A stretch of 64,000 nucleotides of DNA from Winogradskyella sp. Its GTDB lineage: Bacteria; Bacteroidota; Bacteroidia; Flavobacteriales; Flavobacteriaceae. Both the position numbers and the translations under genes were made by a program. Where the stretch lies: positions 1-64,000 of the forward strand of contig NZ_JADGDZ010000008.1 of assembly GCF_016744625.1 (NCBI RefSeq), read 5' to 3'. The notes beneath the pieces are model-generated. The model ran no database searches and was not told the origin of the DNA. It saw nothing but the letters and a program-made list of their open reading frames with translations. Shown here piece by piece: positions 45,072-63,610 of this stretch (position 1 is the stretch's first letter; every line of letters begins with the position of its first letter).

Positions 45072-45114
45072 ATTGGTTAATTGGTAACATTCATTTTAAG
45101 AATTTAGTAAGGTA

Positions 45115-45157
45115 TGACCATTATCATATTTATTTTCAGCTAGATATAGTACTTTTC
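45115..45157 (+). promoter_or_regulatory. CRP/FNR-type operator A with -7 element, upstream of USP gene 45177
   Basis: TGACCATTATCA at 45115-45126 and TACTTTTC at 45150-45157; centre-to-centre distance 33 bases. It serves the USP-VIT gene pair. Regulator inferred to be the REC-CRP protein coded at 56346-57395. Confidence 0.75.
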
Positions 45158-45176: not shown

Positions 45177-46010
45177 ATGAAAAACATACTGCTACTCACG
45201 GACTTTTCAGAAAATTCAATTAATGCAATGCGCTATGCGTTACAATTATTTAAAGAAGACACCTGTAATTTCTTTGTACTTCATGTTGAAATGTCTACAT
45301 CCTATATTAGTGACGACTTAATGTTAGCAGGAAATCAAAGTATTTACGATGTTCTTATAAAAAAGTCAAAGCATGCATTAACGAAACTAGTAAGAGAACT
45401 TAAAAGCGAGTTTAATAACAAGAATTTTAATTTTGAAATAATTGTTGACCATGACGTGTTAATAGACTCCATAAACCAAGCAATATCATCTAAAACTATT
45501 GATTTGATTGTTATGGGTACAAATGGTGTTACTGGAGCCAAAGAGGTTGTTTTTGGTAGTAACACGATTAATATTATACGCAAAGTCGATTGCCCTACTC
45601 TAGTTATTCCTGAAGGTTTTGAATATAGAATTCCTAATCATATTTTATTGCCGTTAGACCTATTTGATTCTTTAAGCGGAACTGCCTTTACTGACATTTT
45701 AAAGTTTACTAATCGCTATTGTAAAAAGCTTCACCTTTTAAGAATTAAGCCTCAGAATGAGGATTCTAAGGAAGCTCTAAAAGACAACAATCATATTAAT
45801 TATTTTTTGAAAGAAACTAATTATGAATATCATGCAATAAACAATATACCTACAGAACATGTTGTTAGTTGCTACACTCAAACTCATCATATCGATTTAA
45901 CAGCTTTAATAGTACAAAAAGAAAGTTTTTTTGAACGCTTTTTTATTGGTTCTCCTACAACAGAAATAAGTAATAAAATTAGAGTTCCTTTACTCATCTC
46001 TCACTCTTAA
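45177..46010 (+). CDS. Universal stress protein, tandem UspA domains
   Basis: 277 residues. The first Usp domain begins MKNILLLTDFSENSINAMRY and has a complete ATP-loop of the form G-x2-G-x9-GSN (MGTNGVTGAKEVVFGSN). The second domain (residues about 150-277) lacks it. Operator A precedes the gene. The VIT-family gene begins 5 bases after its stop, so both are probably induced together. Role inferred from the family: survival during energy or oxygen limitation. Confidence 0.92.
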   Translation: MKNILLLTDFSENSINAMRYALQLFKEDTCNFFVLHVEMSTSYISDDLMLAGNQSIYDVLIKKSKHALTKLVRELKSEFNNKNFNFEIIVDHDVLIDSINQAISSKTIDLIVMGTNGVTGAKEVVFGSNTINIIRKVDCPTLVIPEGFEYRIPNHILLPLDLFDSLSGTAFTDILKFTNRYCKKLHLLRIKPQNEDSKEALKDNNHINYFLKETNYEYHAINNIPTEHVVSCYTQTHHIDLTALIVQKESFFERFFIGSPTTEISNKIRVPLLISHS

Positions 46011-47959: not shown

Positions 47960-48412
47960 TTAGATAACTTCTATAACTTTTTTAGGTTGCTCTTTTGCTT
48001 CTTCTTTTTTATGAAGATTAAGTTTAAGAATACCATTTTTGTAGGTAGCCTTAACTTCTTGATCTGTGCTTACAGATTTAGGCAATGTTAATGATCTTCT
48101 AAATGAATTGTAACTAAATTCTTTACGAGTATAATCTTCCTCTTTCTCTTCAACTTCATGCTTTTTCTCACCACATACATTAAGAATATTATCGTCTATG
48201 GTTACTTCGAAATCTTTTTTAGAAAAACCAGGAGCTGCAAATTCAATTTCAAAATCTTCATCGTGCTCTTTCACATTCATTGCAGGCATTAAACTATCTT
48301 CTTCAAAAAAGTCATTGTTAAAAAAGTCATCACTGCTCAAAAAACTCTTTAAGCTTTCATTATTCCAAGATGGGAATAATCTGTTTCGGTTATTAAATTT
48401 AATAAGTGACAT
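47960..48412 (-). CDS. Hsp20/alpha-crystallin family small heat shock protein
   Basis: 150 residues. The alpha-crystallin domain spans about 40-145 with FEIEFAAPGFSKKDFEVTID, FRRSLTLPKSVSTD and the AxxxNGILxLxLHK ending (KATYKNGILKLNLHKKEEAK). It forms oligomers that hold unfolding proteins for refolding. Operator B precedes it, so control by the CRP/FNR-type regulator is predicted, not only by heat. Confidence 0.93.
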   Translation of the reverse strand: MSLIKFNNRNRLFPSWNNESLKSFLSSDDFFNNDFFEEDSLMPAMNVKEHDEDFEIEFAAPGFSKKDFEVTIDDNILNVCGEKKHEVEEKEEDYTRKEFSYNSFRRSLTLPKSVSTDQEVKATYKNGILKLNLHKKEEAKEQPKKVIEVI

Positions 48413-48452: not shown

Positions 48453-48495
48453 CTAATTTACTAACAGCATGTGTTTTTCGAAATGATATTAATCA
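48453..48495 (-). promoter_or_regulatory. CRP/FNR-type operator B with -7 element, upstream of hsp20
   Basis: TGATATTAATCA at 48484-48495; on the minus strand TAAATTAG at 48460-48453 is the weakest -7 match of the set. Centre-to-centre distance 33 bases. The same 12-mer recurs as operator C. Confidence 0.7.
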
Positions 48496-48511
48496 GTTAA
48501 ACACTTTAGCA

Positions 48512-49885
48512 TTAAATAATTACTTTATCGACATCAGTCAATTTCGGAATACGCACTGTCCAACCGTATGTATCTTTAATTTTAACTCTAAACGCATCTA
48601 ATGCCGTCGGTTCACCATGAATTAAATATACTTTTTCTGGAACATTTTTAATGTTTTGCATCCAGTTTATTAAATCTCTTTGATCGGCATGTGCAGATAA
48701 ACTTTCAATACTTTTTATCGTTGCCTTAACTGGATAATATTTGCCAAAAAATCGTATTTCATGAACACCATCTTGCAATTGTCTACCACGTGTTCCTTCT
48801 GCTTGATAGCCAACTAATAAGACTGTTGTTGATGGTTCATCGATAAGTTGCTTCAAATAAGTGAGCACTCTTCCACCAGTAACCATTCCACTACCAGCAA
48901 TAACAATTTTTGATCTTTTATCATCAATAGTTTCCCATGTTTCTCTATAGGATTGTACAATATTGACGTGATTACACATTTCATTATACTCAGCTGGAGA
49001 CAGTTTGTGCCAATTAGGAAAGCGCTTAAATACGTCTAAAACATTATTTCCCATTGGGCTATCAATAAAAATAGGAATGTTTGGTATTTTATGTTTTTTG
49101 TAAAGTTGCCAAAGAATATACATAAGAGTTTGTAAGCGCTCAACAGCAAAACTTGGTATAATTAAATTACTCTTTTTGTTTATGGTTTTTTTTATTAGTG
49201 ATGCCAGTATTTCTTCTATGTCTTCTTCTGGATGCAATTTATTACCATACGTACTTTCTATAAACAAAAAATCTGCCCATTCTGGAGTTTTAGGATCATC
49301 TAAAAGATAATCATTACGTCTTCCAATATCTCCTGAAAAAACGAAACGTTTTTTGTTTATATCTAATTCAATAAAAGTAGCTCCAATGATATGTCCATTA
49401 TATTGAAAACGATAAGATATATGCTCTGATAAAGGCATCCATTTATCATCAATATTTGCATGAAATAATTTTATAGTCTCTTCTGCCTCTCTAATAGTAA
49501 AAAAGGGCAATGCTGGATTGTGTTTAGTGTATTTTTCTTTATTCGCTTTTTCAGCCTCTTCTTCATGTATTTTGGCACTATCCTTTAATATAATTTCTGC
49601 AATTGCCAGCGTTGGTGCTGTGCCAATAATCTTACCTCTAAATCCTTGTTTAAATAATCGTGGTAAATAACCTGTATGGTCTAAATGTCCATGTGTTAAT
49701 AAAACGACATCTATCGCTTCAACATCTATAGGAAGATCGCTCCAATTCAATTCTCGTAGTTCTTTTAGCCCTTGAAACATACCACAGTCAATTAATATAT
49801 TTTGTTCTAAGGTTTCAATAAGGAATTTAGAACCTGTGACAACACCTGAGGCTCCTAAAAAATTGATTTTTGCAAAATTTTCCAT
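48512..49885 (-). CDS. Metallo-beta-lactamase-fold beta-CASP RNase-like protein
   Basis: 457 residues. Metal-site motifs are HGHLDHTGYLPRL (HxHxDH), SGDIGRRND and a later SLSAHADQRDLINW. The beta-CASP insert and GYQAEGTRGRQLQDG segment match the Ysh1/CPSF-73-like exonuclease group that cuts or trims RNA. Its start overlaps the stop of the ATP-cone nuclease gene by one base (TAATG at 49885), so the two are coupled. Confidence 0.9.
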   Translation of the reverse strand: MENFAKINFLGASGVVTGSKFLIETLEQNILIDCGMFQGLKELRELNWSDLPIDVEAIDVVLLTHGHLDHTGYLPRLFKQGFRGKIIGTAPTLAIAEIILKDSAKIHEEEAEKANKEKYTKHNPALPFFTIREAEETIKLFHANIDDKWMPLSEHISYRFQYNGHIIGATFIELDINKKRFVFSGDIGRRNDYLLDDPKTPEWADFLFIESTYGNKLHPEEDIEEILASLIKKTINKKSNLIIPSFAVERLQTLMYILWQLYKKHKIPNIPIFIDSPMGNNVLDVFKRFPNWHKLSPAEYNEMCNHVNIVQSYRETWETIDDKRSKIVIAGSGMVTGGRVLTYLKQLIDEPSTTVLLVGYQAEGTRGRQLQDGVHEIRFFGKYYPVKATIKSIESLSAHADQRDLINWMQNIKNVPEKVYLIHGEPTALDAFRVKIKDTYGWTVRIPKLTDVDKVII

Positions 49886-50739
49886 TACTTGTGATTTTCA
49901 ATGGTGCATAATTGTGATATTTCATTAAATATTTTTTCTTTTCTAACTTCTGAAACACCTAAATGATCTAAATAAAATTTATCATGTATTAGCTCTCTAC
50001 AAAGCACCACATCTCTGCTTAATAAAAACTGCTTTTCTCTATTAGTGAGTAATGTAGACACAGTAATTGGGTATAAACCTAAACGGTCAATACGGTCCTT
50101 TAGTCCATCATTTTTCGGGTAATCCCAACTTAATAAATATAAGCCACAGCACTTACTATACTTTATTGCATCATCTGTAAACCTTGTATTAGTTACTACC
50201 CAACCTTTTGAAAGTGAAGTTCCATTTTTCGGATTAGCATTCCAATGCGTTTTTACATCTTGGTATCTCGAATTAATATATAATGGAATTTTGACGTTGC
50301 AATTAATACCTTGTTCCCCATGAAATTTACACTCTATTAATGTAGTTTCATTCCCTTTATGGGCAATTACGTCTATCTCATGCGTCACACATTTTCCTTG
50401 TAATACTTTACCAACTTTTACTTTATAGCCAGAATATTTTAAAACAGCACCTATAAAACATTCAAAAGGAAATCCTGTTGGTCCTAACTCATAAATTGCC
50501 TTTTTAAGCTTGTATTTTGAAGCTAAATAACTCTTCTTTTTCTTTAGCAATGCAAAGGCTCTATTATAGATTTCTTTTGTAGAAATACCTTGATACAATT
50601 CATCCCGAACCTTGTCTATAATTTGACTAACAGTCTGTTTATCTGCGCCAGTTCGCTTTAAAGATCCTTGTAATTTGTCTAGTGAAAATTTAACACGCTC
50701 ACCTGATGATTTTGTAATATCAAAACTCTCATTTTTCAT
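49885..50739 (-). CDS. ATP-cone domain fused to a restriction-endonuclease-like (Mrr-type) domain
   Basis: 284 residues. Residues about 1-90 form an ATP-cone (SSGERVKFSLDKLQGSLKRTG), a nucleotide-sensing module known from ribonucleotide reductase and NrdR. Residues about 95-235 show a PD-(D/E)xK nuclease core, Asp in HEIDVIAHKG and TLIECKFHG with the ExK pair. It could be a nuclease gated by ATP/dATP. It is coupled to the beta-CASP gene. Confidence 0.82.
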   Translation of the reverse strand: MKNESFDITKSSGERVKFSLDKLQGSLKRTGADKQTVSQIIDKVRDELYQGISTKEIYNRAFALLKKKKSYLASKYKLKKAIYELGPTGFPFECFIGAVLKYSGYKVKVGKVLQGKCVTHEIDVIAHKGNETTLIECKFHGEQGINCNVKIPLYINSRYQDVKTHWNANPKNGTSLSKGWVVTNTRFTDDAIKYSKCCGLYLLSWDYPKNDGLKDRIDRLGLYPITVSTLLTNREKQFLLSRDVVLCRELIHDKFYLDHLGVSEVRKEKIFNEISQLCTIENHK

Positions 50740-51236: not shown

Positions 51237-52091
51237 TTAGTTTCTTAAATCGTGCATCGCCAATATTGGAACGTTAAGGTGAAATGAAATTTCTTTCACC
51301 AAAGGACTTGAGAGTATACTGCCAAAAAAAGCATGCTTTTTGTTTATAAAAGCAACCATATCACTACCTCTGCTTTCTACAAAAACATTAACTGCCGTTA
51401 TAACAGAATTATGAGATAACTCATGAAATTTATAATTTATACCTTGCAAAATTTCTTCTAATAGTTGCTTGTTTTCTTTTTGGTTTTCATCTAATTCACT
51501 GGCTTCAGCAACATGAAGTATTACAATTGTTGCATTACATTTTTTAGCAATATCTGTGAGATAGATGAGTTCTCTTCTTTTATAATGTGTTCTATAACTT
51601 GTAGGAAATACAATCTCTATAGGCAATGCTAATTTTGCCTTTTGAGGCACTACTATTACTGGGCAATTGCGTGCTTTTTCCATAACATATATTGCTGTAC
51701 TACCAAATGCTGTAGCTCTAGAATGTGTTTCGCCTTTGGTTCCCATTACAATCATTTCAATATCCTTTTTCTCAACTACAGTTTTAATAGCATCTATAGT
51801 ATTGCTAAACATTGAAATCGTTTTAAACTGATGCTTAGAATCACTTTTACCTCGTAATATCAGTTTCTCTAAAACTTTAGCTAACCCATTTTCAGAATCC
51901 CATTTTTTTGTTTCGTATAATTCACTTCCAGGTTCAAGATTCATTAGACTTTCCAATACATTTCCAGTCGCAGAAAACACATTTAAAATATAAAAATCAG
52001 TCGGTTCATTTTTATATAACTCTGTCGCATAATTAATTGCATGCCAAGCATTCTCTGAGAAATCTGTAGGTAATAATATTTTATGTCTCAT
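51237..52091 (-). CDS. Universal stress protein, tandem domains
   Basis: 284 residues from the ATG at 52091 (MRHKILLPTDFSENAWHAIN). An in-frame start ten codons upstream was rejected because only the shorter form begins like the paralogues. ATP-loop MGTKGETHSRATAFGST fits G-x2-G-x9-G(S/T) in the first domain. It is the most diverged of the island set and sits 42 bases after the preceding USP gene. Confidence 0.9.
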   Translation of the reverse strand: MRHKILLPTDFSENAWHAINYATELYKNEPTDFYILNVFSATGNVLESLMNLEPGSELYETKKWDSENGLAKVLEKLILRGKSDSKHQFKTISMFSNTIDAIKTVVEKKDIEMIVMGTKGETHSRATAFGSTAIYVMEKARNCPVIVVPQKAKLALPIEIVFPTSYRTHYKRRELIYLTDIAKKCNATIVILHVAEASELDENQKENKQLLEEILQGINYKFHELSHNSVITAVNVFVESRGSDMVAFINKKHAFFGSILSSPLVKEISFHLNVPILAMHDLRN

Positions 52092-52133
52092 TGTCGTATA
52101 TTTTAAGTTACTACTTAACACTATGTAATATTA

Positions 52134-52970
52134 TTATAAGTCTATAGATGGTATTACAAAAAAGGGCACAGTAGCGTGGAACCCAATTTTTTTAATCACT
52201 GGCTCATTAATAATGCTTTCAATAAAACTGTGTTTATAATTTATCATTACAAGAATGTTAATGTTAAGTTCTTCAATAAAATCAACAATTGCATTCGCCT
52301 TTTTGGTGTAATCTGGCATCCAATGAAATGAATGTGGATAATTCTCTAGGTAAGTTTTAAGCATTGCTACATTGTAGTCTTGCAAATGACTTAAGTTCTT
52401 CTCCTCATTAATATGAACTATTCTTATTTTAGAATTATATAACTCTACTAAACGTTTTAATGGAAGTAATTCTTCTCCGTAAAATCTGTTATAATCTGTT
52501 GGAAATGCAATCTGTTTTGGCTCTACAAAGTCGTACTCATGAGGTACTAATAGAATTGGACATGATTTAATATGTTTTATAATTTTTACAGTATTGCTAC
52601 CAAAGAAAATTTCTTTTGCTCCAGTTGCTCCTTTTGTACCCATTACAATAAGGTCTATTTTATACTTTTGAATTGCGAATTCAATCGCATCATCCATAGC
52701 TTCAATACTTAAGATTATTTTAAACTCATGGTTAGCATTTACATTTGCATTTTCTGCCATTTCCTTTAATTCTAAAAGCTCTTCTTTAGCATTGTCTGAC
52801 ATCACTTTTAATAAGCGATTAGAGATATTAGACATCGTCGAAGTTTTCATTTTTGTAGAATGCAAAAAGTAAAATACACATTCTTCTTCTGCATATAACT
52901 TTAAAGCATATACTGCTGCACACCAAGCGTTATCTGAAAAATCCGTTGGTAATAGTATGTTTTTTTTCAT
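52134..52970 (-). CDS. Universal stress protein, tandem domains, first gene behind operator C
   Basis: 278 residues. Start MKKNILLPTDFSDNAWCAAV and ATP-loop MGTKGATGAKEIFFGSN in domain one. Domain two ends ATVPFFVIPSIDL. Operator C lies about 55 bases upstream, with no other gene between. It and the next two genes are likely one transcript ending at the terminator near 50754. Confidence 0.92.
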   Translation of the reverse strand: MKKNILLPTDFSDNAWCAAVYALKLYAEEECVFYFLHSTKMKTSTMSNISNRLLKVMSDNAKEELLELKEMAENANVNANHEFKIILSIEAMDDAIEFAIQKYKIDLIVMGTKGATGAKEIFFGSNTVKIIKHIKSCPILLVPHEYDFVEPKQIAFPTDYNRFYGEELLPLKRLVELYNSKIRIVHINEEKNLSHLQDYNVAMLKTYLENYPHSFHWMPDYTKKANAIVDFIEELNINILVMINYKHSFIESIINEPVIKKIGFHATVPFFVIPSIDL

Positions 52971-52993
52971 GGCCAGAATCTTTAATTACAGTT

Positions 52994-53036
52994 GAAAATT
53001 AGCACTTACACTTACCCTATGAAATGATATTAATCA
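52994..53036 (-). promoter_or_regulatory. CRP/FNR-type operator C with -7 element
   Basis: TGATATTAATCA at 53025-53036; TAATTTTC on the minus strand at 53001-52994. Centre-to-centre distance 33 bases. Serves the genes 52970 to 50816. Confidence 0.75.
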
Positions 53037-53043
53037 GTAATAA

Positions 53044-53886
53044 CTATAGTTTTGAAGGAATTACTAAAAAAGGAACATTTAAGTGAAATCCGATATGATT
53101 AATGGTCGATTTAAAAAACAAGTTTTCGAAAAACGAATGCTTATTATTAATCATTACCAATAAGTTTACACGTGCTTTAATTTGAAATTTGGTAATTGCT
53201 TCGGTAATATTCTCATTCTTTACATTGTGAAATAAGTGCGCGATGCTTTTAAAATAATTTTCTAATTTTATACGATTTTGCTCCTGTTTTTCTGACAATT
53301 CTTTGCTATTAAAAACATGAATAATGTTTATACGTATATTATACAATGAAGCAATATCTATAATTGGTTTTACATGTTTTTCTTTAAAATCGACTTCATA
53401 ATCTGAAGGAAATAACAGCTCTTGAGGTGTTTCAAAAGAAAAGTCATTAGGTACTGCTAATACAGGACATTTAGCGTTTTTTAAAACATGTACTGTATTA
53501 GATCCTAATAGCACTTCTTTTACACCAGAAGCACCATTGGTTCCCATAATAATCATATCCATTGCCTGTCCTTCATAAAGCTCATTAATTTCTGCAGTGA
53601 GTGTATTGAAAGATGATAATTGATTAAATACATGATTAGGGTTTTTAAATTCTGTTTCAATTTTTTGCAATAGTATTTCTAAGTTCCTTTTTGAGGATTC
53701 TTTTACAGCTTCCAATACATGAAATTGAGGAGAACTTGCCTGCATATACTCATATTGATAAATAATTGGTGTATACGTATGTAATAACGTGAAGCTACAT
53801 TTTTCATTTTTATACAGTTGAAGTGCATATTTTATAGCATTCCAAGAATTATCAGAAAAATCCGTTGGTAATAGTATTTTTTTCAT
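53044..53886 (-). CDS. Universal stress protein, tandem domains
   Basis: 280 residues. Start MKKILLPTDFSDNSWNAIKY; ATP-loop MGTNGASGVKEVLLGSN. Only 23 bases separate it from the USP gene upstream, so it belongs to the operator D transcript. Its C-terminal half ends FHLNVPFLVIPSKL, as in its paralogues. Confidence 0.92.
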   Translation of the reverse strand: MKKILLPTDFSDNSWNAIKYALQLYKNEKCSFTLLHTYTPIIYQYEYMQASSPQFHVLEAVKESSKRNLEILLQKIETEFKNPNHVFNQLSSFNTLTAEINELYEGQAMDMIIMGTNGASGVKEVLLGSNTVHVLKNAKCPVLAVPNDFSFETPQELLFPSDYEVDFKEKHVKPIIDIASLYNIRINIIHVFNSKELSEKQEQNRIKLENYFKSIAHLFHNVKNENITEAITKFQIKARVNLLVMINNKHSFFENLFFKSTINHIGFHLNVPFLVIPSKL

Positions 53887-53909
53887 GGTAATTGATTTTA
53901 TGTTATTTT

Positions 53910-54758
53910 TTAATAGCGTCTTATATTTTGTAATGCTAAAAATGGAATATCTATGTACAAGCTTACTTTATCTATAGTAGATTGAAACAATATGTTTTCT
54001 AAAAATGAATGTCTTGTATTCATCATAACCAACATATCTACATCATTCTCTTTTATGTAAGCATAAATGGCATTGGTAATATTTTTATCCTTAACCCTTT
54101 TAAAATTAATCTGGTTCTTGCACAATTCATCTTTTATAAAACTCTGATTATCTTTTTGTCTTAAAGAAAGTTTTTCACTTTTAGAAATGTAAAGCATATC
54201 TATATCTGCTCTATAAGGTGATGCTAATTCGCACAATAGTTTAAGTTCTCTTCTTTTGTAGGGAATTAAATAATTTGTTGGAAATAGAACATGTCTTGGT
54301 TGTATGCCTTTATAGTTTTCTGGAATCGCTAAAACAGGACATTGTACATATTTTAATACTTGTAATGTATAGCTCCCAAAGGTTAATCTCCTATCATTAG
54401 TTTTACCACGTGTTCCCATAACAATGATATCTATATTCTCTTCATCAACAATTTTATCGGCTTCATCTATAAGCATACTGTTAGAAGAAATTATATTATA
54501 AGTGTGACTTGGATTTGGGGAAATTTTTTTTATTTCATTTAAGATACCTTCTAACTTTAATTGAGACCTATTACTAATTATCTCAGTAACCTGATCCATT
54601 GTTTCTCTAGATAGTAATTCTTCATCTGCATATATTTCGTCTTGATAAGCATGCATAATAAAGAACTCACTCACATCGTATTTAAATAGCTCCAAAGCAT
54701 ATTTTAGAGCATTCATGGCATTGTCTGAAAAATCAGTAGGAACTAATACTTTTCTCAT
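53910..54758 (-). CDS. Universal stress protein, tandem domains, first gene behind operator D
   Basis: 282 residues. Start MRKVLVPTDFSDNAMNALKY; ATP-loop MGTRGKTNDRRLTFGSY. Operator D and a -7 element precede it by 25-67 bases, predicting a leader of about 20 bases. Confidence 0.92.
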   Translation of the reverse strand: MRKVLVPTDFSDNAMNALKYALELFKYDVSEFFIMHAYQDEIYADEELLSRETMDQVTEIISNRSQLKLEGILNEIKKISPNPSHTYNIISSNSMLIDEADKIVDEENIDIIVMGTRGKTNDRRLTFGSYTLQVLKYVQCPVLAIPENYKGIQPRHVLFPTNYLIPYKRRELKLLCELASPYRADIDMLYISKSEKLSLRQKDNQSFIKDELCKNQINFKRVKDKNITNAIYAYIKENDVDMLVMMNTRHSFLENILFQSTIDKVSLYIDIPFLALQNIRRY

Positions 54759-54782
54759 AACTTTATTGTTTTATGTGATGTT

Positions 54783-54825
54783 TAAAAGTACATCTCATAA
54801 CCCATTGAAACTATGACATATATCA
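54783..54825 (-). promoter_or_regulatory. CRP/FNR-type operator D with -7 element
   Basis: TGACATATATCA at 54814-54825; TACTTTTA on the minus strand at 54790-54783. Centre-to-centre distance 33 bases. Serves the USP pair 54758 and 53886. Confidence 0.75.
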
Positions 54826-54869
54826 GATATAGCATAATTAGAGTCAAATGATTTAGTTCTAATTTCTAC

Positions 54870-54963
54870 AAAATAAAAGAAGCCAAACTAGCGTTTGGCT
54901 TCTTTCAAAATTAAATGCAAACTAATAGAAAACCCCATTTTCAATAGTCATAGCTAAATGCTA
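54870..54963 (-). ncRNA. Candidate operator-controlled small RNA (about 90 nt)
   Basis: A promoter with operator F (54968-55010) points into this gene-free stretch, and a perfect 12-base-pair terminator hairpin ends it. Predicted start about 54963, end about 54870. It contains a possible 9-codon ORF (MTIENGVFY, 54951-54922) that may be fortuitous or a leader peptide. No conserved longer frame exists. By analogy with FnrS of Escherichia coli this would be an FNR-type-activated sRNA. Confidence 0.5.
54877..54904 (-). terminator. Strong terminator ending the sRNA candidate and the operator E transcript
   Basis: AAGAAGCCAAAC at 54877-54888 pairs perfectly with GTTTGGCTTCTT at 54893-54904 around a 4-base loop; the minus strand continues TTATTTTG. 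It also works in the plus direction (CTTCTTTC). Confidence 0.85.
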
Positions 54964-54967
54964 TTTT

Positions 54968-55010
54968 CAAATGTAACTAGATGTTATTATATATAAAATG
55001 ATATATATCA
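54968..55010 (-). promoter_or_regulatory. CRP/FNR-type operator F with -7 element, no protein gene downstream
   Basis: TGATATATATCA at 54999-55010; TACATTTG on the minus strand at 54975-54968, an exact -7 consensus. Centre-to-centre distance 33 bases. The only transcript it can drive before the terminator is the small RNA candidate. Confidence 0.7.
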
Positions 55011-55027
55011 TTTTTCATTTTCCTTAC

Positions 55028-55414
55028 TTAAATCAGTACGATACCATAAACCTTATTCAGTAAAAAAAGACCAATAAAGAATAACAGCATATATATAACT
55101 TGCACAAGCTTAATGTTAACATACTCTAGCCAAGAAATGGTTCGTCTTGGCAGTATAAACAATGCTAATCCAATACATAATGAGAACCATCCTATTAGCG
55201 TAATAATAAGTTTATAATTCAGTTCCCAAATATTATGAAATATAATATTTAACAGACCAATTATAATGGCAACAAAAGCAGAAATGATTAAAAATTTTTC
55301 GTCTTTTAGATCATTAAATATTTGTTTAATACGTTTGGGTTTTAGGCTTAATATTAAAAAGAAAATAATAAGATACCAGCCCCAAAACTTTGCTAAGAAA
55401 ATTGAATTATCCAT
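55028..55414 (-). CDS. Small polytopic membrane protein
   Basis: 128 residues with four predicted membrane helices and a short cytoplasmic loop (KPKRIKQIFNDLKDEKF). No motif is recognised. Its start overlaps the end of the upstream USP gene by 8 bases, so it is translated from the operator E transcript. A membrane partner of the USP is conceivable but unsupported. Confidence 0.72.
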   Translation of the reverse strand: MDNSIFLAKFWGWYLIIFFLILSLKPKRIKQIFNDLKDEKFLIISAFVAIIIGLLNIIFHNIWELNYKLIITLIGWFSLCIGLALFILPRRTISWLEYVNIKLVQVIYMLLFFIGLFLLNKVYGIVLI

Positions 55415-56267
55415 AATATTCGTTTTTTTCGTGTAATACTAAAAATGGTACTTCTGTATGATAGCTTATTTTTTCAACCCTAGAATGAAATAGAATTTGC
55501 TGAAAGTAATTTAAATTTTTTGCTACCATACAAATGATATTTATATCTCTACTTTCTACAAAACATTGAACAGCATCTTCTACTCTTCTGTTTGTTAAAT
55601 AATGAAAACTATAAGGTTGATTATTAAAATATTCTTCTATTAACTCTTTATTTTTCTCTTGTTCATTATCTAGATCTACTTTCTTTTTATTGATATGAAG
55701 AATTCGTAATGAGGATCTAAACTGTTCTATAATTTCTATTATTGGTTGCAAAACTTGTAAATTGTGAGACAATGAGAAATCTGTTGGAAATGCTATCTCT
55801 TTTGGTAAAATAAATTCTGCGTTTTCTGGGATGGCTAATGTGTTGCACTTTACTTTTGTGATAACATCTGATGTATTAGTGCCTAAAATAATCCTTCCAA
55901 ATCCTGAGGCTCCTTTTGTTCCCATTACTATAATATCTATACGTTTTTCATTTACTATTTTACGGATAGACTCTATAAAAAAATTATAATCCGTAAGTGT
56001 ATAAAACTTATGATTCTTTTGATTTGGAGATTCTTTTGAGATACGTTTTAAGATATTACGCAGTTGCTTTTTAGCTGGTTTTGTATAAATTTCTTCGATA
56101 TAGTTTTGGTCAATAACTATTGACGTATCATTAGCAGCTAGATGCCCCAATTTATTAATATGCAATACATAAAAATTGCATATTTCATTTCTAAAAAAAC
56201 GGAGAGCATATTTTATGGCATTCCATGAATTCTCCGAAAAATCGGTAGGAAGTAATACATTCTTCAT
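55407..56267 (-). CDS. Universal stress protein, tandem domains, first gene behind operator E
   Basis: 286 residues. Start MKNVLLPTDFSENSWNAIKY; ATP-loop MGTKGASGFGRIILGTN in which GT replaces GS. The C-terminal half ends EVPFLVLHEKNEY. Operator E precedes it by 22-64 bases. The membrane-protein gene overlaps its 3' end. Confidence 0.92.
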   Translation of the reverse strand: MKNVLLPTDFSENSWNAIKYALRFFRNEICNFYVLHINKLGHLAANDTSIVIDQNYIEEIYTKPAKKQLRNILKRISKESPNQKNHKFYTLTDYNFFIESIRKIVNEKRIDIIVMGTKGASGFGRIILGTNTSDVITKVKCNTLAIPENAEFILPKEIAFPTDFSLSHNLQVLQPIIEIIEQFRSSLRILHINKKKVDLDNEQEKNKELIEEYFNNQPYSFHYLTNRRVEDAVQCFVESRDINIICMVAKNLNYFQQILFHSRVEKISYHTEVPFLVLHEKNEYYG

Positions 56268-56288: not shown

Positions 56289-56331
56289 CAAATGTATATG
56301 CTAAATGTAACTCATAAAATGACCACAGTCA
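56289..56331 (-). promoter_or_regulatory. CRP/FNR-type operator E with -7 element
   Basis: TGACCACAGTCA at 56320-56331 (the one site with GTCA rather than ATCA on the right arm); TACATTTG on the minus strand at 56296-56289, an exact consensus. Centre-to-centre distance 33 bases. Confidence 0.75.
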
Positions 56332-56345
56332 TTTATAAGAGTTTA

Positions 56346-57395
56346 CTAATTTATTTGCTTTAAACGTTCTAGGTCTAACACTACAATATTTCTACCTTCA
56401 GATTTAATAATTCCTTCATTCTTAAAATTGGTGAGTGTTCTAATAAACGTTTCCGTTGCAACACCAGCAACACTAGCCAAATCGTTTCTAGAAATTTTAA
56501 TTGGATCGTCTGGCTTTCGGTTAATTCTTTCGGCAAATTTTACTATTGTATCCGCTGTTTTTTTATTTACAGAACTATAAGCCATTTGTAAAAGCTGCTC
56601 TTTAATATTTGACAAATCATCTGTTAACAAATCTATTATTGCGATTGCTACCTTATGATTTTCATTTAATATCTCAGAGAGTTGTAGAATAGACACACCA
56701 ACTAATACCGTTTCCTTAATCGTAGTGGCTGTCTCTTTATGTGGCAAATTATGTGTAAAAGAAGTGTAACCAAATAAATCATCTTCTTTATATAACCCAG
56801 TTACTAATTCTTTTCCTTGTGTATCTAGTTTATGGCATTTTACTGCTCCTTTAGTTATAAGGTAAATAAAATTAGAATGATCACCTTCTCTATATATAAT
56901 TTGATCTTTAGCTATGTAAAACTCCTTACCATAATCATCGAAAAAATTCTTTAAATCATTGAGTGAACACAATTCATCTTCTTCAGAATAATTATTGACA
57001 TTATTATTATCTCGCTCATTCAAAATACTTGCCTTGGCTAATCTGCTTTTTATAGCACTAATCAATTCGTCTTCAGTAAATGGTTTTGTTATGTAATCAT
57101 CTGCTCCAAGATTCATTCCTTTTCTAACATCATCATGTTCTGTTTTTGCAGAAAGGAAAATAAAAGGAATGTGCTTTGTTAAATTATTTTTAGAAAGACG
57201 ATCTAATACTTCGTAGCCATCTAATTCTGGCATCATAATGTCACAAACAATAATATCTGGACAATACTTTTTCGCTTCTTTTAAACCTAGTTTTCCATTA
57301 GAAGCTGTGGCTAATTTAAAGCCAGATATCTCTAACAACTCTGCAGTGTTCTCTCTTAAGACAGTATCATCTTCTATAAGCAATATTTTAGTCAT
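56346..57395 (-). CDS. Response regulator fused to a CRP/FNR-type transcription factor (REC-cNMP-HTH)
   Basis: 349 residues. Residues 1-122 are a receiver with acidic pocket Glu8-Asp9-Asp10, phosphoacceptor Asp52 (CDIMMP), Ser82 and Lys104 (ITKPF). Residues about 150-240 form a cNMP-binding-type beta roll without the FNR iron-sulfur cysteines. Residues about 265-345 are a Crp helix-turn-helix (SRNDLASVAGVATETFIRTL) whose recognition helix keeps Glu315 and Arg319, the pair that reads TGA half-sites in CRP and FNR. It overlaps the kinase gene by 4 bases. It is the natural candidate to bind the nine TGA-N6-TCA operators. Confidence 0.93.
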   Translation of the reverse strand: MTKILLIEDDTVLRENTAELLEISGFKLATASNGKLGLKEAKKYCPDIIVCDIMMPELDGYEVLDRLSKNNLTKHIPFIFLSAKTEHDDVRKGMNLGADDYITKPFTEDELISAIKSRLAKASILNERDNNNVNNYSEEDELCSLNDLKNFFDDYGKEFYIAKDQIIYREGDHSNFIYLITKGAVKCHKLDTQGKELVTGLYKEDDLFGYTSFTHNLPHKETATTIKETVLVGVSILQLSEILNENHKVAIAIIDLLTDDLSNIKEQLLQMAYSSVNKKTADTIVKFAERINRKPDDPIKISRNDLASVAGVATETFIRTLTNFKNEGIIKSEGRNIVVLDLERLKQIN

Positions 57396-59275
57396 GAGAT
57401 TTCTTTATTTGGTATATGAAGTTTTACGGTTGTGCCTTTGTGCTCTATACTTTTTAAGGTAATACTACCTCCTAAGTTTTCTAAGTGTGTTTTTACAATA
57501 TTCAACCCTATACCAGTTCCTTGCATATTTAAAACATTTTCCGCTCTAAAATACCTTGTAAAAACATTGCTTATATCGTTTGGTGGAATACCAATACCGT
57601 GATCTTTAATTTCGAATATCGCTTTATTGATATCATGTTTTACACCAATATTAATTTCTGAATTTTCGCCCGAATATTTTACAGCATTTTGAATTACATT
57701 AGACAATATCAACTCCAAAATTCTCTCATCTTGGCAAATCGTTATATCATCAATATCGTCCGGATAATTAATACGTTGTCCTTCCTTAAGTAACATATTG
57801 GCATTATAAACTACTTCATTAATCACCTTGCTTAATTTAAAGCTGGTGAATTTGTAATTAAAAGTTTTGGACTCTAATCTTTCAATAGATAAAAAATCAT
57901 TTAAAATATTATTGAGATAGTGTACTTTATCTTTAATGATGTCTAAATGCTTATCGCGTTTAGATTGCTCCTCTGCAAGTCTATACTTTTCCAGCAACAT
58001 TATCGATGTAGATATACCACTTAAAGGTGTTTTAAATTCATGAGAAACCAAAGACAAAAATTTCGTTTTTAGCTCGTTGAGTTCTTTCTCTTTACTCAAG
58101 GCTTCTTGTAGTTGTTCTGTTCTTTCTTTTACAGTCTTTTCTAATTTTTTAGTATAGTTTTTTTGTTCTGTTATATCAACAATTATGGCAACAAATACAG
58201 GTTTTTCGTTTAGATGAGACAATTGTAGATGTACCATTACAGGATATTTCGTACCATTTTTTCTAATATGTGTTGTTTCGAATTCTATATGTTCCTTCTC
58301 GTGGCTTAAAAGCTTATTTGCATACTTATTTCTAAAAAAAGATTCTTCCACATTGAGTTTTAAATCTATTGGAGTCATCGATTTAAGGTCTTCGAAGGAA
58401 TACCCAATATTATGTAGTGCACCTCTATTTACATTTATAAATTTTAGAGTATCCGCATCAAAAACATATATTTCGTTTAAAGACTCATTAAATATTTTGG
58501 CTAAATGATTCTTTTCTTCTTCTGCAATAACACGCTCAGTAACGTCATTTTGAATTCCAATATAATTTGTAACAATACCTTTTTTATTAGTTATCGGTGT
58601 AATGTACAAGTCATTCCAAAAAAGCGTGCCATCCTTTCTGTAATTTCTTAAAGTGACTAGACAACTATTACCTCTTTTAATAGCCTTACGAAGCTTATGA
58701 AGTTCTTTTTGATTTTTGTCATTACCTTGTAAGAAGCGGCAATTTTTATTTAAAATTTCTTCTTTAGAGTAACCTGTAAGTTTTTCAAAAGCTGGATTAA
58801 AATAAACAATAGGATTATCTGGTTTCGTTGCATCCGAAATTAAAACACCATTACTTGCAGATTCTAAAGCTTTACTTCTTAGCATAAAATCAAACTCTGT
58901 TTCTTTTTGCTTAGATATATCTTTAACCAAAGCCATGATATATGTTCTATTATATATCTTAAACGGATTTAAATCTACTTCTACAGGAATAGTGTCACCA
59001 TTTTTTTTTAAGCCATAAACATCTCTAGTTTTCCCCATTTTACGATGTTTATATTCTTTAATAAAGACATTAAAATAATCATCATGCTTAGTATGATAAT
59101 TAGATGGTAATAGCACATTAAGTGTTTTTCCTTTTATCTCTGTTTTATTATACCCAAAAACAGTTTCAGCGGCATTATTTACTTCCACAATACATTGTTT
59201 ATCATTAACAATTATTACTGCTTCAGATACTGTTTCTAATAAAACATTGAAAATTTCCTGATCCTGATTTATCAT
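57392..59275 (-). CDS. Sensor histidine kinase with FixL-like PAS, LOV and a third PAS domain
   Basis: 627 residues, cytoplasmic, no membrane helices. PAS1 (about 8-125) has HDDY with His64, the position of the FixL heme ligand, and TRDVYG with Arg84 matching the FixL oxygen-switch Arg. PAS2 (about 130-250) is a canonical LOV domain. It has the photoactive Cys179 in NCRFLQG and flavin-contacting Asn211 (NYRKDG), Asn221 (FWN) and Gln242 (IGIQ). PAS3 is about 255-370. A coiled coil leads to HisKA with His412 (SHEFKTPL) and HATPase boxes NVIQNAVKYS, DHGIGIPP and GTGIGLNIV. Its stop overlaps the response-regulator start by 4 bases. Heme and flavin binding are inferred from residues. Confidence 0.92.
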   Translation of the reverse strand: MINQDQEIFNVLLETVSEAVIIVNDKQCIVEVNNAAETVFGYNKTEIKGKTLNVLLPSNYHTKHDDYFNVFIKEYKHRKMGKTRDVYGLKKNGDTIPVEVDLNPFKIYNRTYIMALVKDISKQKETEFDFMLRSKALESASNGVLISDATKPDNPIVYFNPAFEKLTGYSKEEILNKNCRFLQGNDKNQKELHKLRKAIKRGNSCLVTLRNYRKDGTLFWNDLYITPITNKKGIVTNYIGIQNDVTERVIAEEEKNHLAKIFNESLNEIYVFDADTLKFINVNRGALHNIGYSFEDLKSMTPIDLKLNVEESFFRNKYANKLLSHEKEHIEFETTHIRKNGTKYPVMVHLQLSHLNEKPVFVAIIVDITEQKNYTKKLEKTVKERTEQLQEALSKEKELNELKTKFLSLVSHEFKTPLSGISTSIMLLEKYRLAEEQSKRDKHLDIIKDKVHYLNNILNDFLSIERLESKTFNYKFTSFKLSKVINEVVYNANMLLKEGQRINYPDDIDDITICQDERILELILSNVIQNAVKYSGENSEINIGVKHDINKAIFEIKDHGIGIPPNDISNVFTRYFRAENVLNMQGTGIGLNIVKTHLENLGGSITLKSIEHKGTTVKLHIPNKEIS

Positions 59276-59339
59276 AATGATTTAAATAAAATAAGACTAT
59301 ACTAAAGATACAAAATCTTAGCCTATTATTTTATGAAAC

Positions 59340-59382
59340 TGATCAATATCATACCATAAAAAACACATCTTGCATAAATTTA
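59340..59382 (+). promoter_or_regulatory. CRP/FNR-type operator G with -7 element, upstream of the TerB-like gene
   Basis: TGATCAATATCA at 59340-59351; TAAATTTA at 59375-59382 on the plus strand. Centre-to-centre distance 33 bases. On the minus strand toward the kinase gene no -7 match sits at this distance; TATCTTTA at 59310-59303 is 39 bases away, so autoregulation of the kinase would have a different geometry. Confidence 0.7.
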
Positions 59383-59418: not shown

Positions 59419-59808
59419 ATGAAAGTAGAATTATATCAAAATATTGGAAAATTATTTTATGCTATAGCAAAAGCTGATGGTAAGTTAACTATTGAAGAAT
59501 ATCGGAAACTTAATGAGATTTTAAACCATTTTTGGCTACATATAAATCCAAAATCCATTGAAACAACAAAACATACGTTCAATCAACTTCATCTATGCGA
59601 TGCAGAACCTTCTCTCTGTTTTGACAATTTTATGTCATTCTATAAAACTAATTTTCATCTTTTTACAAAAGAATTAAAAAGTTTGATTTTAAAAACCGCA
59701 AATGGTATCGCATATGCATTTGCCAAAATCAATAAATCTGAACTTATTCTATTGGCAAAACTGAGTATCGAATTTAAAAAGCATGAAGTATTAAATCATG
59801 AAAAGTAA
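59419..59808 (+). CDS. TerB-like helical protein
   Basis: 129 residues, all helical. KLFYAIAKADGKLTIEEYRK near the start resembles the acidic TerB/DjlA-type segment (A-x-A-D-G-x-x-x-x-E-E). The remaining helices carry no motif I recognise. It stands alone between operators G and H, so it probably forms its own short transcript. A metal-binding or stress role is inferred from the resemblance only. Confidence 0.6.
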   Translation: MKVELYQNIGKLFYAIAKADGKLTIEEYRKLNEILNHFWLHINPKSIETTKHTFNQLHLCDAEPSLCFDNFMSFYKTNFHLFTKELKSLILKTANGIAYAFAKINKSELILLAKLSIEFKKHEVLNHEK

Positions 59809-59843
59809 TTTTAACATCATCTTAAAGCCACAAAGCACATTAA

Positions 59844-59886
59844 TGACCAATATCATTTTATAACTTTTTCAAGGATACTACATTTA
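59844..59886 (+). promoter_or_regulatory. CRP/FNR-type operator H with -7 element, upstream of the WG/efflux operon
   Basis: TGACCAATATCA at 59844-59855; TACATTTA at 59879-59886. Centre-to-centre distance 33 bases. Serves the genes 59914 to 63555. Confidence 0.75.
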
Positions 59887-59913: not shown

Positions 59914-60522
59914 ATGAAAAAATTAATATTTTTTTTAGCTACCCTTCTAGTTATTCCTTTATCTATTACAGCTCAAAATCTTGAAGAAATTGATTTTATT
60001 TCACCTTTTAATAATGGATTGTCTGCGATTCAAAAAGATGGCAAATGGGCTTTTATTAATACAGAAGGTGAAATGATTATTGATTATAGAAGTGATTTGG
60101 TTGTAACCTCCTTTGGAGAAAATGACTATCCTATTTTTAATTCTGATAGATGTCTAATCGTCAATAAAGAAGATGACATATCATATTATGGATATATTGA
60201 TAAAACAGGAAAAACAATACTTAAACCTCAATACTTAAATGCTACAAATTTTGAGAATGGTCTAGCCATAATACTAAAGCTTCATAAAAATCGCCTTGGT
60301 CAAAATGATGTATTAGATAAAAGCATGATTGACTACAGTTATTCAGAATTAGCAATAAATACTAATGGTGATACTATACATTATCTTTCTGAGAAACCAA
60401 CGCATATCACTTTATCTAAAGACTATGCAAAATCACCACCAAAGATTAAGACAAAATTTATTTCAGAAGAACTTATTGCGACTAAAAACAAGAATAACAA
60501 ATGGTCTATTAAGAAAATATAA
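59914..60522 (+). CDS. Secreted WG-repeat protein
   Basis: 202 residues with signal peptide ending SITAQ. WG-type repeats such as FNNGLSAIQKDGKWAFINTE and YGYIDKTGKTILKPQY form short beta repeats. It precedes the efflux adaptor gene by 15 bases and shares its promoter. Its function is unknown. Confidence 0.8.
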   Translation: MKKLIFFLATLLVIPLSITAQNLEEIDFISPFNNGLSAIQKDGKWAFINTEGEMIIDYRSDLVVTSFGENDYPIFNSDRCLIVNKEDDISYYGYIDKTGKTILKPQYLNATNFENGLAIILKLHKNRLGQNDVLDKSMIDYSYSELAINTNGDTIHYLSEKPTHITLSKDYAKSPPKIKTKFISEELIATKNKNNKWSIKKI

Positions 60523-63555: not shown

Positions 63556-63567
63556 GTTTTCTTATAA

Positions 63568-63610
63568 TGATATTCATCATTTCTTATTACTCTATTTAAA
63601 ACTAATTTTA
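63568..63610 (+). promoter_or_regulatory. CRP/FNR-type operator I with -7 element, upstream of the DnaJ pair
   Basis: TGATATTCATCA at 63568-63579; TAATTTTA at 63603-63610. Centre-to-centre distance 33 bases. The -7 element lies 25 bases before the ATG at 63635, and it favours that start over longer in-frame ones. Confidence 0.75.

Follow-up and report, generated by a model that had tools for sequence, protein, structure and literature searches.

We identified, in a 64,000-nucleotide stretch of a Winogradskyella sp. contig (NZ_JADGDZ010000008.1, positions 1–64,000; hereafter the window), a sensor histidine kinase in which a LOV domain lies between two other PAS domains, the first of them related to the heme PAS domain of FixL, and which is encoded directly beside a receiver-Crp (Rec-Crp) response regulator. 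Among relatives of this kinase in the Flavobacteriaceae, those with LOV consistently lack the distal Gly-x-Gly-Arg motif of the FixL oxygen switch, while most of those without LOV have it. The reading that we favor, with a probability of roughly 0.6, is that of a low-oxygen/stress two-component system in which the LOV insertion would add blue light as an input and the FixL-type O2 switch would have been remodelled.

Kinase, regulator and LOV domain

The first-pass annotation of this locus was accurate as to the open reading frame, its coordinates and its residues, the strand being minus (Table 1). Its domain reading also stood for PAS1, LOV and the kinase part, but it had overlooked PAS3, between LOV and HisKA, for which the PDB yielded a single weak relative. 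The kinase core (HisKA and HATPase_c) is intact according to Pfam, and the full-length model displays one unbroken helix at residues 369–430 with moderate confidence.

Table 1 Features of the kinase–regulator locus and of its surroundings in the window.
Feature	Position	Strand	Basis or remark
Sensor histidine kinase, PAS1-LOV-PAS3-HisKA-HATPase_c	57392..59275	-	627 aa
PAS1 (residues 9-120), FixL/DosP-type, heme candidate	58916..59251	-	Pfam PAS/PAS_9, PDB matches, AlphaFold2 model
His64, equivalent of BjFixL His200 / DosP His77 (heme ligand there)	59084..59086	-	alignment
Arg84 (codon AGA), equivalent of BjFixL Arg220	59024..59026	-	alignment; Arg in 4/41 LOV orthologs
LOV domain (residues 132-247)	58535..58882	-	PDB LOV matches down to 3e-40
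Cys179, flavin-adduct cysteine	58739..58741	-	PDB LOV alignment; 41/42 relatives
PAS3 (residues 255-370)	58166..58513	-	domain search, PDB search
HisKA (403-469), dimerisation/phosphoacceptor, H412 in SHEFKTP	57869..58069	-	Pfam
HATPase_c (516-624), catalytic	57404..57730	-	Pfam
Response regulator, 349 aa: receiver (D52), cNMP-binding fold, HTH_Crp	56346..57395	-	Pfam
Five universal stress protein (USP) genes (51237, 52134, 53044, 53910, 55407) and ORF 55028	51237..56267	-	ORFs; downstream of regulator
FNR-like box, TGATCAATATCA core, upstream of kinase and divergent ORF 59419	59339..59352	+	pattern search
FNR-like box upstream of USP gene 55407-56267	56319..56332	+	pattern search
Perfect FNR-like box ATGATATATATCAT, between USP gene 53910-54758 and ORF 55028	54998..55011	+	pattern search
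FNR-like box upstream of USP gene 53910-54758	54813..54826	+	pattern search
FNR-like box upstream of USP gene 52134-52970	53024..53037	+	pattern search
FNR-like box upstream of Hsp20-like gene 47960-48412	48483..48496	+	pattern search
FNR-like box upstream of USP gene 45177-46010	45114..45127	+	pattern search
FNR-like box upstream of ORF 59914-60522	59843..59856	+	pattern search

The kinase and regulator genes overlap by 4 nt. The single receiver/CRP-type regulator that had been proposed was confirmed by Pfam (Response_reg, cNMP_binding and HTH_Crp_2), i.e., the protein does not combine a FixJ-type receiver with a LuxR-type HTH and, unlike the Crp/Fnr one-component regulators, it has an N-terminal receiver with D52. 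Rec-Crp regulators were present in 211 of the 395 Flavobacteriaceae genomes searched, and in all 125 kinase–regulator loci that we compared the regulator sits directly beside a PAS kinase of the same family. Several Winogradskyella genomes encode 2–3 Rec-Crp regulators (41–46% identity), and paralogous kinase and Rec-Crp genes occur near the main pair (L039:7527-9143, L042:7458-9080, G067:C11:726656 and G062:C57:57981). We propose that a FixL/FixJ-FixK-like system has here been compressed into two proteins: the soluble PAS kinase would phosphorylate D52 of a regulator in which a receiver and a FixK/FNR-type DNA-binding module are joined.

The LOV signature claimed earlier was recovered in full, with Cys179 and every flavin-contact position in place (N178-C179-R180-F-L-Q183, N211, N221 and Q242). 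Across the 42 LOV domains of the family, the cysteine is conserved in 41, N178, N211 and N221 in all and Q242 in 40, and, for a given degree of kinase divergence, LOV is the best kept of the sensory domains. From these residues, blue-light sensing by the 627-aa kinase appears well supported. We consider it very improbable that LOV is not photoactive and has a redox/flavin or purely structural role, given the near-invariant cysteine and flavin contacts; a passage of PMC4844311 that cites LovK does indicate that LOV flavins can respond to redox too, and one relative (L108) has Phe at the Cys179 equivalent, as well as Leu at the Gln183 position. Rhodopsin genes, which likewise speak against a light-insensitive LOV, were found in 13 of 24 LOV-kinase genomes of the Winogradskyella-like genus vs 1 of 20 LOV-free genomes with the system, yet this difference comes down to only 3 independent pairs, and we did not retain a general association of LOV kinases with rhodopsin genes. 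In the photoactive kinase that we favor, blue light would form the Cys179–flavin adduct, the signal would reach HisKA by way of PAS3 and the signalling helix and alter D52 phosphorylation, and the regulator would act at FNR-like boxes, the sign of the light effect, like the direction of each signal in the system, being putative.

A FixL-type PAS domain with a probably remodelled oxygen switch

PAS1 aligns with BjFixL (in the PDB chain of its R206A variant) over 117 residues without a gap and at 25% identity. Its PDB matches down to 3e-9 are all heme PAS domains, namely FixL (9e-13), DosP (2e-11) and FG214 (10jx). The comparison of a predicted PAS1 structure with FixL came out as the first-pass annotation would have it: for an AlphaFold2 model built on a 13-sequence alignment (pLDDT 76), Foldseek ranks 1–18 were all heme PAS domains, nearest FixL, EcDos and FG214, and VIA-align gave a top Z of 15.8 (RmFixL), although the fold alone is not decisive since non-heme PAS domains follow within 1–2 Z units. 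Residues H200, Y203 and R220 of BjFixL correspond to H64, Y67 and R84, and Arg84 follows the histidine by 20 positions, just as in BjFixL. The HDxY context reported for His64 reads H64-D65-D66-Y67, and the histidine is kept in 119 of the 124 PAS1 domains of the kinase family, which places it beyond chance. In the FixL/DosP cluster, this F-alpha histidine is the main heme-binding determinant (PMC10468136). Sequence and model alike place PAS1 as a domain of FixL descent that probably still binds heme via His64, with heme as the presumed cofactor; in the window protein itself, such binding is plausible.

The oxygen switch is another matter. Arg220 of FixL touches heme-bound O2 (PMC10765370), and the first-pass annotation had taken Arg84 as this switch residue. 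While the proximal His is present in 37 of 41 LOV kinases and 82 of 83 LOV-free kinases, the distal Gly-x-Gly-Arg (Gly83-Arg84) is found in 74 of 83 LOV-free kinases vs none of the 41 with LOV. Gly83 is gone in 38 of these 41, and position 101, Gly/Ser in 82 of 83 LOV-free kinases, is mostly Glu (33/41) in LOV kinases. The window PAS1 reads Gly-Lys-Thr-Arg at the motif site; Arg occupies position 84 in only 4 of the 41 and is missing from the closest relatives, in which Lys-Thr-Thr/Ala or similar stands in place of Lys-Thr-Arg, and the AGA codon is one step from a Thr codon. Arg84 thus looks like a local Thr-to-Arg change and is poor evidence for a FixL switch, let alone proof of one: an arginine at the switch position was correctly noted, a conserved switch was not.

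These observations bear directly on the possibility of a true dual sensor, in which the PAS1 heme would sense O2 via His64/Arg84 and LOV would sense blue light, both feeding one regulator. The presence of both residues, the kinship of PAS1 to FixL/DosP in fold and sequence, the retention of the His in most LOV kinases, and an FNR-like box and stress genes that fit a low-oxygen role are all consistent with it, but the absence of Arg84 from the nearest relatives, the loss of Gly83 and of the whole Gly-x-Gly-Arg motif, and the pocket itself, which has V70, K79, K82 and T83 for BjFixL R206, I215, I218 and G219 and so lacks both R206 and the hydrophobic I215/I218, make it unlikely. Accordingly, of the dual sensing originally claimed, the light half is well supported and FixL-like O2 sensing is not. 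With the Arg84 switch unsupported and these FixL pocket residues replaced, O2 sensing by the window PAS1 appears doubtful, although the arginine is not required for heme binding as such.

Could PAS1 instead be a decayed, cofactor-free FixL domain serving as an N-terminal cap or in dimerisation, and the protein a pure LOV kinase? His64 has been lost in four LOV kinases, i.e., L014 (10-residue gap), L019 (Tyr), and L107 and L125 (Leu), and PAS1 is entirely deleted in L112, whereas the sole loss among the 83 LOV-free kinases (L123) is nested among LOV kinases. However, the other 37 of the 41 keep His64, and, when kinases of matched divergence are compared, PAS1 sequences are no less alike in LOV kinases than in LOV-free ones; PAS1 does not evolve faster overall, which argues for remodelling over plain decay and, together with the retained His, suggests that PAS1 may remain an active sensor. 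We therefore rate mere decay as quite unlikely. The gap in L014 (the same protein as L060) removes the PAS1 proximal His region and leaves the LOV and kinase domains intact. In the remodelled kinase that we favor, PAS1 would serve as a heme/ligand or dimerisation domain that has been tuned or in part silenced and, its Gly-x-Gly-Arg being altered as in all LOV-bearing relatives, LOV would be the main acute sensor.

Repeated gain and loss of LOV

Four forms of kinase were found beside the regulator: PAS1-kinase (50 loci), PAS1-PAS3-kinase (33), PAS1-LOV-PAS3-kinase (41) and LOV-PAS3-kinase (1, L112), hence 42 LOV domains including L112, 41 of them with PAS1. The combination of PAS1 and LOV, described as unusual in the first-pass annotation, therefore recurs in many Flavobacteriaceae and is not a one-off. 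Outside the Flavobacteriaceae, a non-exhaustive search gave no heme-PAS and LOV pair among 23 matches, in one of which (L062, Rhodopirellula) LOV is present with Leu at the His position, and we found no published account of the PAS1-LOV kinase/Rec-Crp system in the open-access literature. One kinase, L119 (809 aa), has about 200 additional residues between PAS1-LOV-PAS3 and the kinase core.

On the tree of the kinase core and regulator, LOV was gained or lost at least 7 times, with 7 of 7 changes forced by firm branches. The LOV module spans ~125 residues and joins the conserved D-I/V-T/S ends of the adjacent PAS domains; the 125 loci show it to be an add-on module between PAS1 and PAS3, which would have been inserted there in the lineage of the window kinase. 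Some of the LOV changes are best read as exchanges of 5′ gene segments: L043 has a PAS1 nearly identical to that of L040, and its kinase core groups with LOV kinases.

In 7 tree-independent pairs, Gly-x-Gly-Arg changed opposite to LOV in 5–6 (median sign-test p 0.031). A tree of PAS1 alone yielded fewer independent events, with 2 of 5 changes on firm branches. The inverse association is thus in part that of a single PAS1-LOV cassette, inherited or exchanged among the kinases, and for this reason we consider the association moderate in strength. A strict parallel between Arg loss and every LOV gain held only in part, as in L109 and L127 PAS1 and LOV seem to have been transferred jointly as a cassette, and the N-terminus of L043 was swapped. 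More tentatively, and with somewhat less confidence than an even chance would warrant, Flavobacteriaceae may repeatedly convert an O2-sensing FixL-like kinase to a blue-light sensor for an unchanged FNR-box regulon, with the distal switch disabled and the proximal His kept. The outcome would be either a natural exchange of sensors under a constant output or a light-gated heme sensor, PAS1 reading CO, NO, redox or heme itself.

Predicted regulon and relation to known systems

The upstream regions of genes at the 125 loci show strong enrichment of the palindrome ATGAT-N4-ATCAT. The core TGAT-N4-ATCA occurs in 100 of them vs about 3 expected, and the relaxed TGAY-N4-RTCA in 124, where it precedes 175 of 211 USP genes and 96 of 116 kinases. 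This box resembles the TTGAT-N4-ATCAA-like site of FNR/FixK, the FixK consensus being TTGANCNNGATCAA (PMC4999443), and its binding by the regulator is a prediction. In the window, boxes lie 62–83 bp ahead of the starts of four USP genes, the Hsp20-like gene, the kinase and two further ORFs; a sixth USP gene is located at 45177. The suggested link to USP genes was thereby substantiated, with boxes upstream of both kinase and USP genes and with USP genes adjoining 123 of 125 relatives. The TGAY-N4-RTCA sites bound by the regulator would then be those of its own operon as well as those of the USP and small heat-shock genes.

Several neighboring genes deserve mention. ORF 59419-59808 (+, 129 aa, no Pfam match) shares the divergent promoter and box with the kinase and is a possible member of the system. 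Near the stress genes, 49885-50739 (-) encodes an ATP-cone together with a nuclease fold of the Mrr_cat type (AF1548-like C-terminus) and adjoins a beta-CASP metallo-hydrolase gene (48512-49885). Another perfect FNR-like box, ATGATATTCATCAT, is situated at 63567-63580, just behind an ABC-transporter gene, and in a related locus a 602-aa protein (L219:2076-3881) with no Pfam or NCBIfam match is encoded behind an FNR-like box.

The genome of the window contains 36 TGAY-N4-RTCA sites vs 8 for the reversed pattern. According to this genome-wide list, which comes from pattern search alone, boxes precede ccoI, ccoNO, pyruvate formate-lyase, hemN and copper nitrite reductase genes, as well as genes for PPK2, ribosome-hibernation and CBS proteins. 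Control of the cbb3 oxidase by the regulator through the ccoI/ccoNO boxes was nonetheless set aside, as ccoI has a box in 20 of 21 genomes with the regulator and also in 8 of 9 without it. The latter points to use of the box by a one-component FNR-like protein too. This protein, whose gene is divergent from ccoI and whose recognition helix is similar, could be responsible for some of the regulon predicted here. Because the box is shared with regulator-free genomes, only the autoregulated kinase operon and the USP neighborhood can be assigned here, and we attribute these to the kinase–regulator system with some confidence. Overall, box density was 7.4 per Mb in genomes with the regulator vs 5.5 in those without (p 1e-5, kinship ignored), the control pattern being equal.

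The closest known counterpart is the FixL-FixJ-FixK system of Alphaproteobacteria, which likewise includes a FixL/DosP-type PAS kinase and an FNR/FixK-like box, and in Caulobacter FixK controls fixLJ/fixK, much as boxes lie here at the system's own operon. There, however, FixJ (receiver and LuxR-type HTH) and FixK are separate proteins, whereas here the receiver is fused to Crp/FNR, a LOV module has been inserted and the distal Gly-x-Gly-Arg is lost. In Brucella LOV-HK and Caulobacter LovK, too, a canonical LOV precedes the histidine kinase, but here LOV is flanked by two other PAS domains and linked to a classical HisKA and a dedicated Rec-Crp regulator. The link to USP genes recalls DosS/DosT-DosR of Mycobacterium tuberculosis, whose heme kinases govern a USP-rich dormancy regulon, although with GAF heme domains, a LuxR-type regulator and no LOV. 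The engineered LOV-FixL chimeras YF1 and SB2F1 (PDB 4gcz, 8a3u) also place LOV on a FixL-type signalling path, yet they are man-made and LOV replaces the heme PAS, while the present arrangement is natural and has LOV behind a heme-type PAS. AppA of Rhodobacter sphaeroides (BLUF and heme-binding SCHIC) was proposed to combine blue light and heme/redox in one protein (PMC4844311), but its photosensor and heme folds differ from those of the window kinase, and it is an antirepressor rather than a kinase.

Taken together, these results correct the reading of the 627-aa kinase as a straightforward O2 and light sensor, and they provide a natural series of close kinases and regulators that differ in the presence of LOV and in the state of the FixL O2 switch. 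Such a series lends itself to tests of how a signalling helix accommodates an added sensor and of how one sensor replaces another while the output stays fixed; it also allows one to ask whether light serves marine bacteria that are not phototrophic as a low-oxygen/stress cue.
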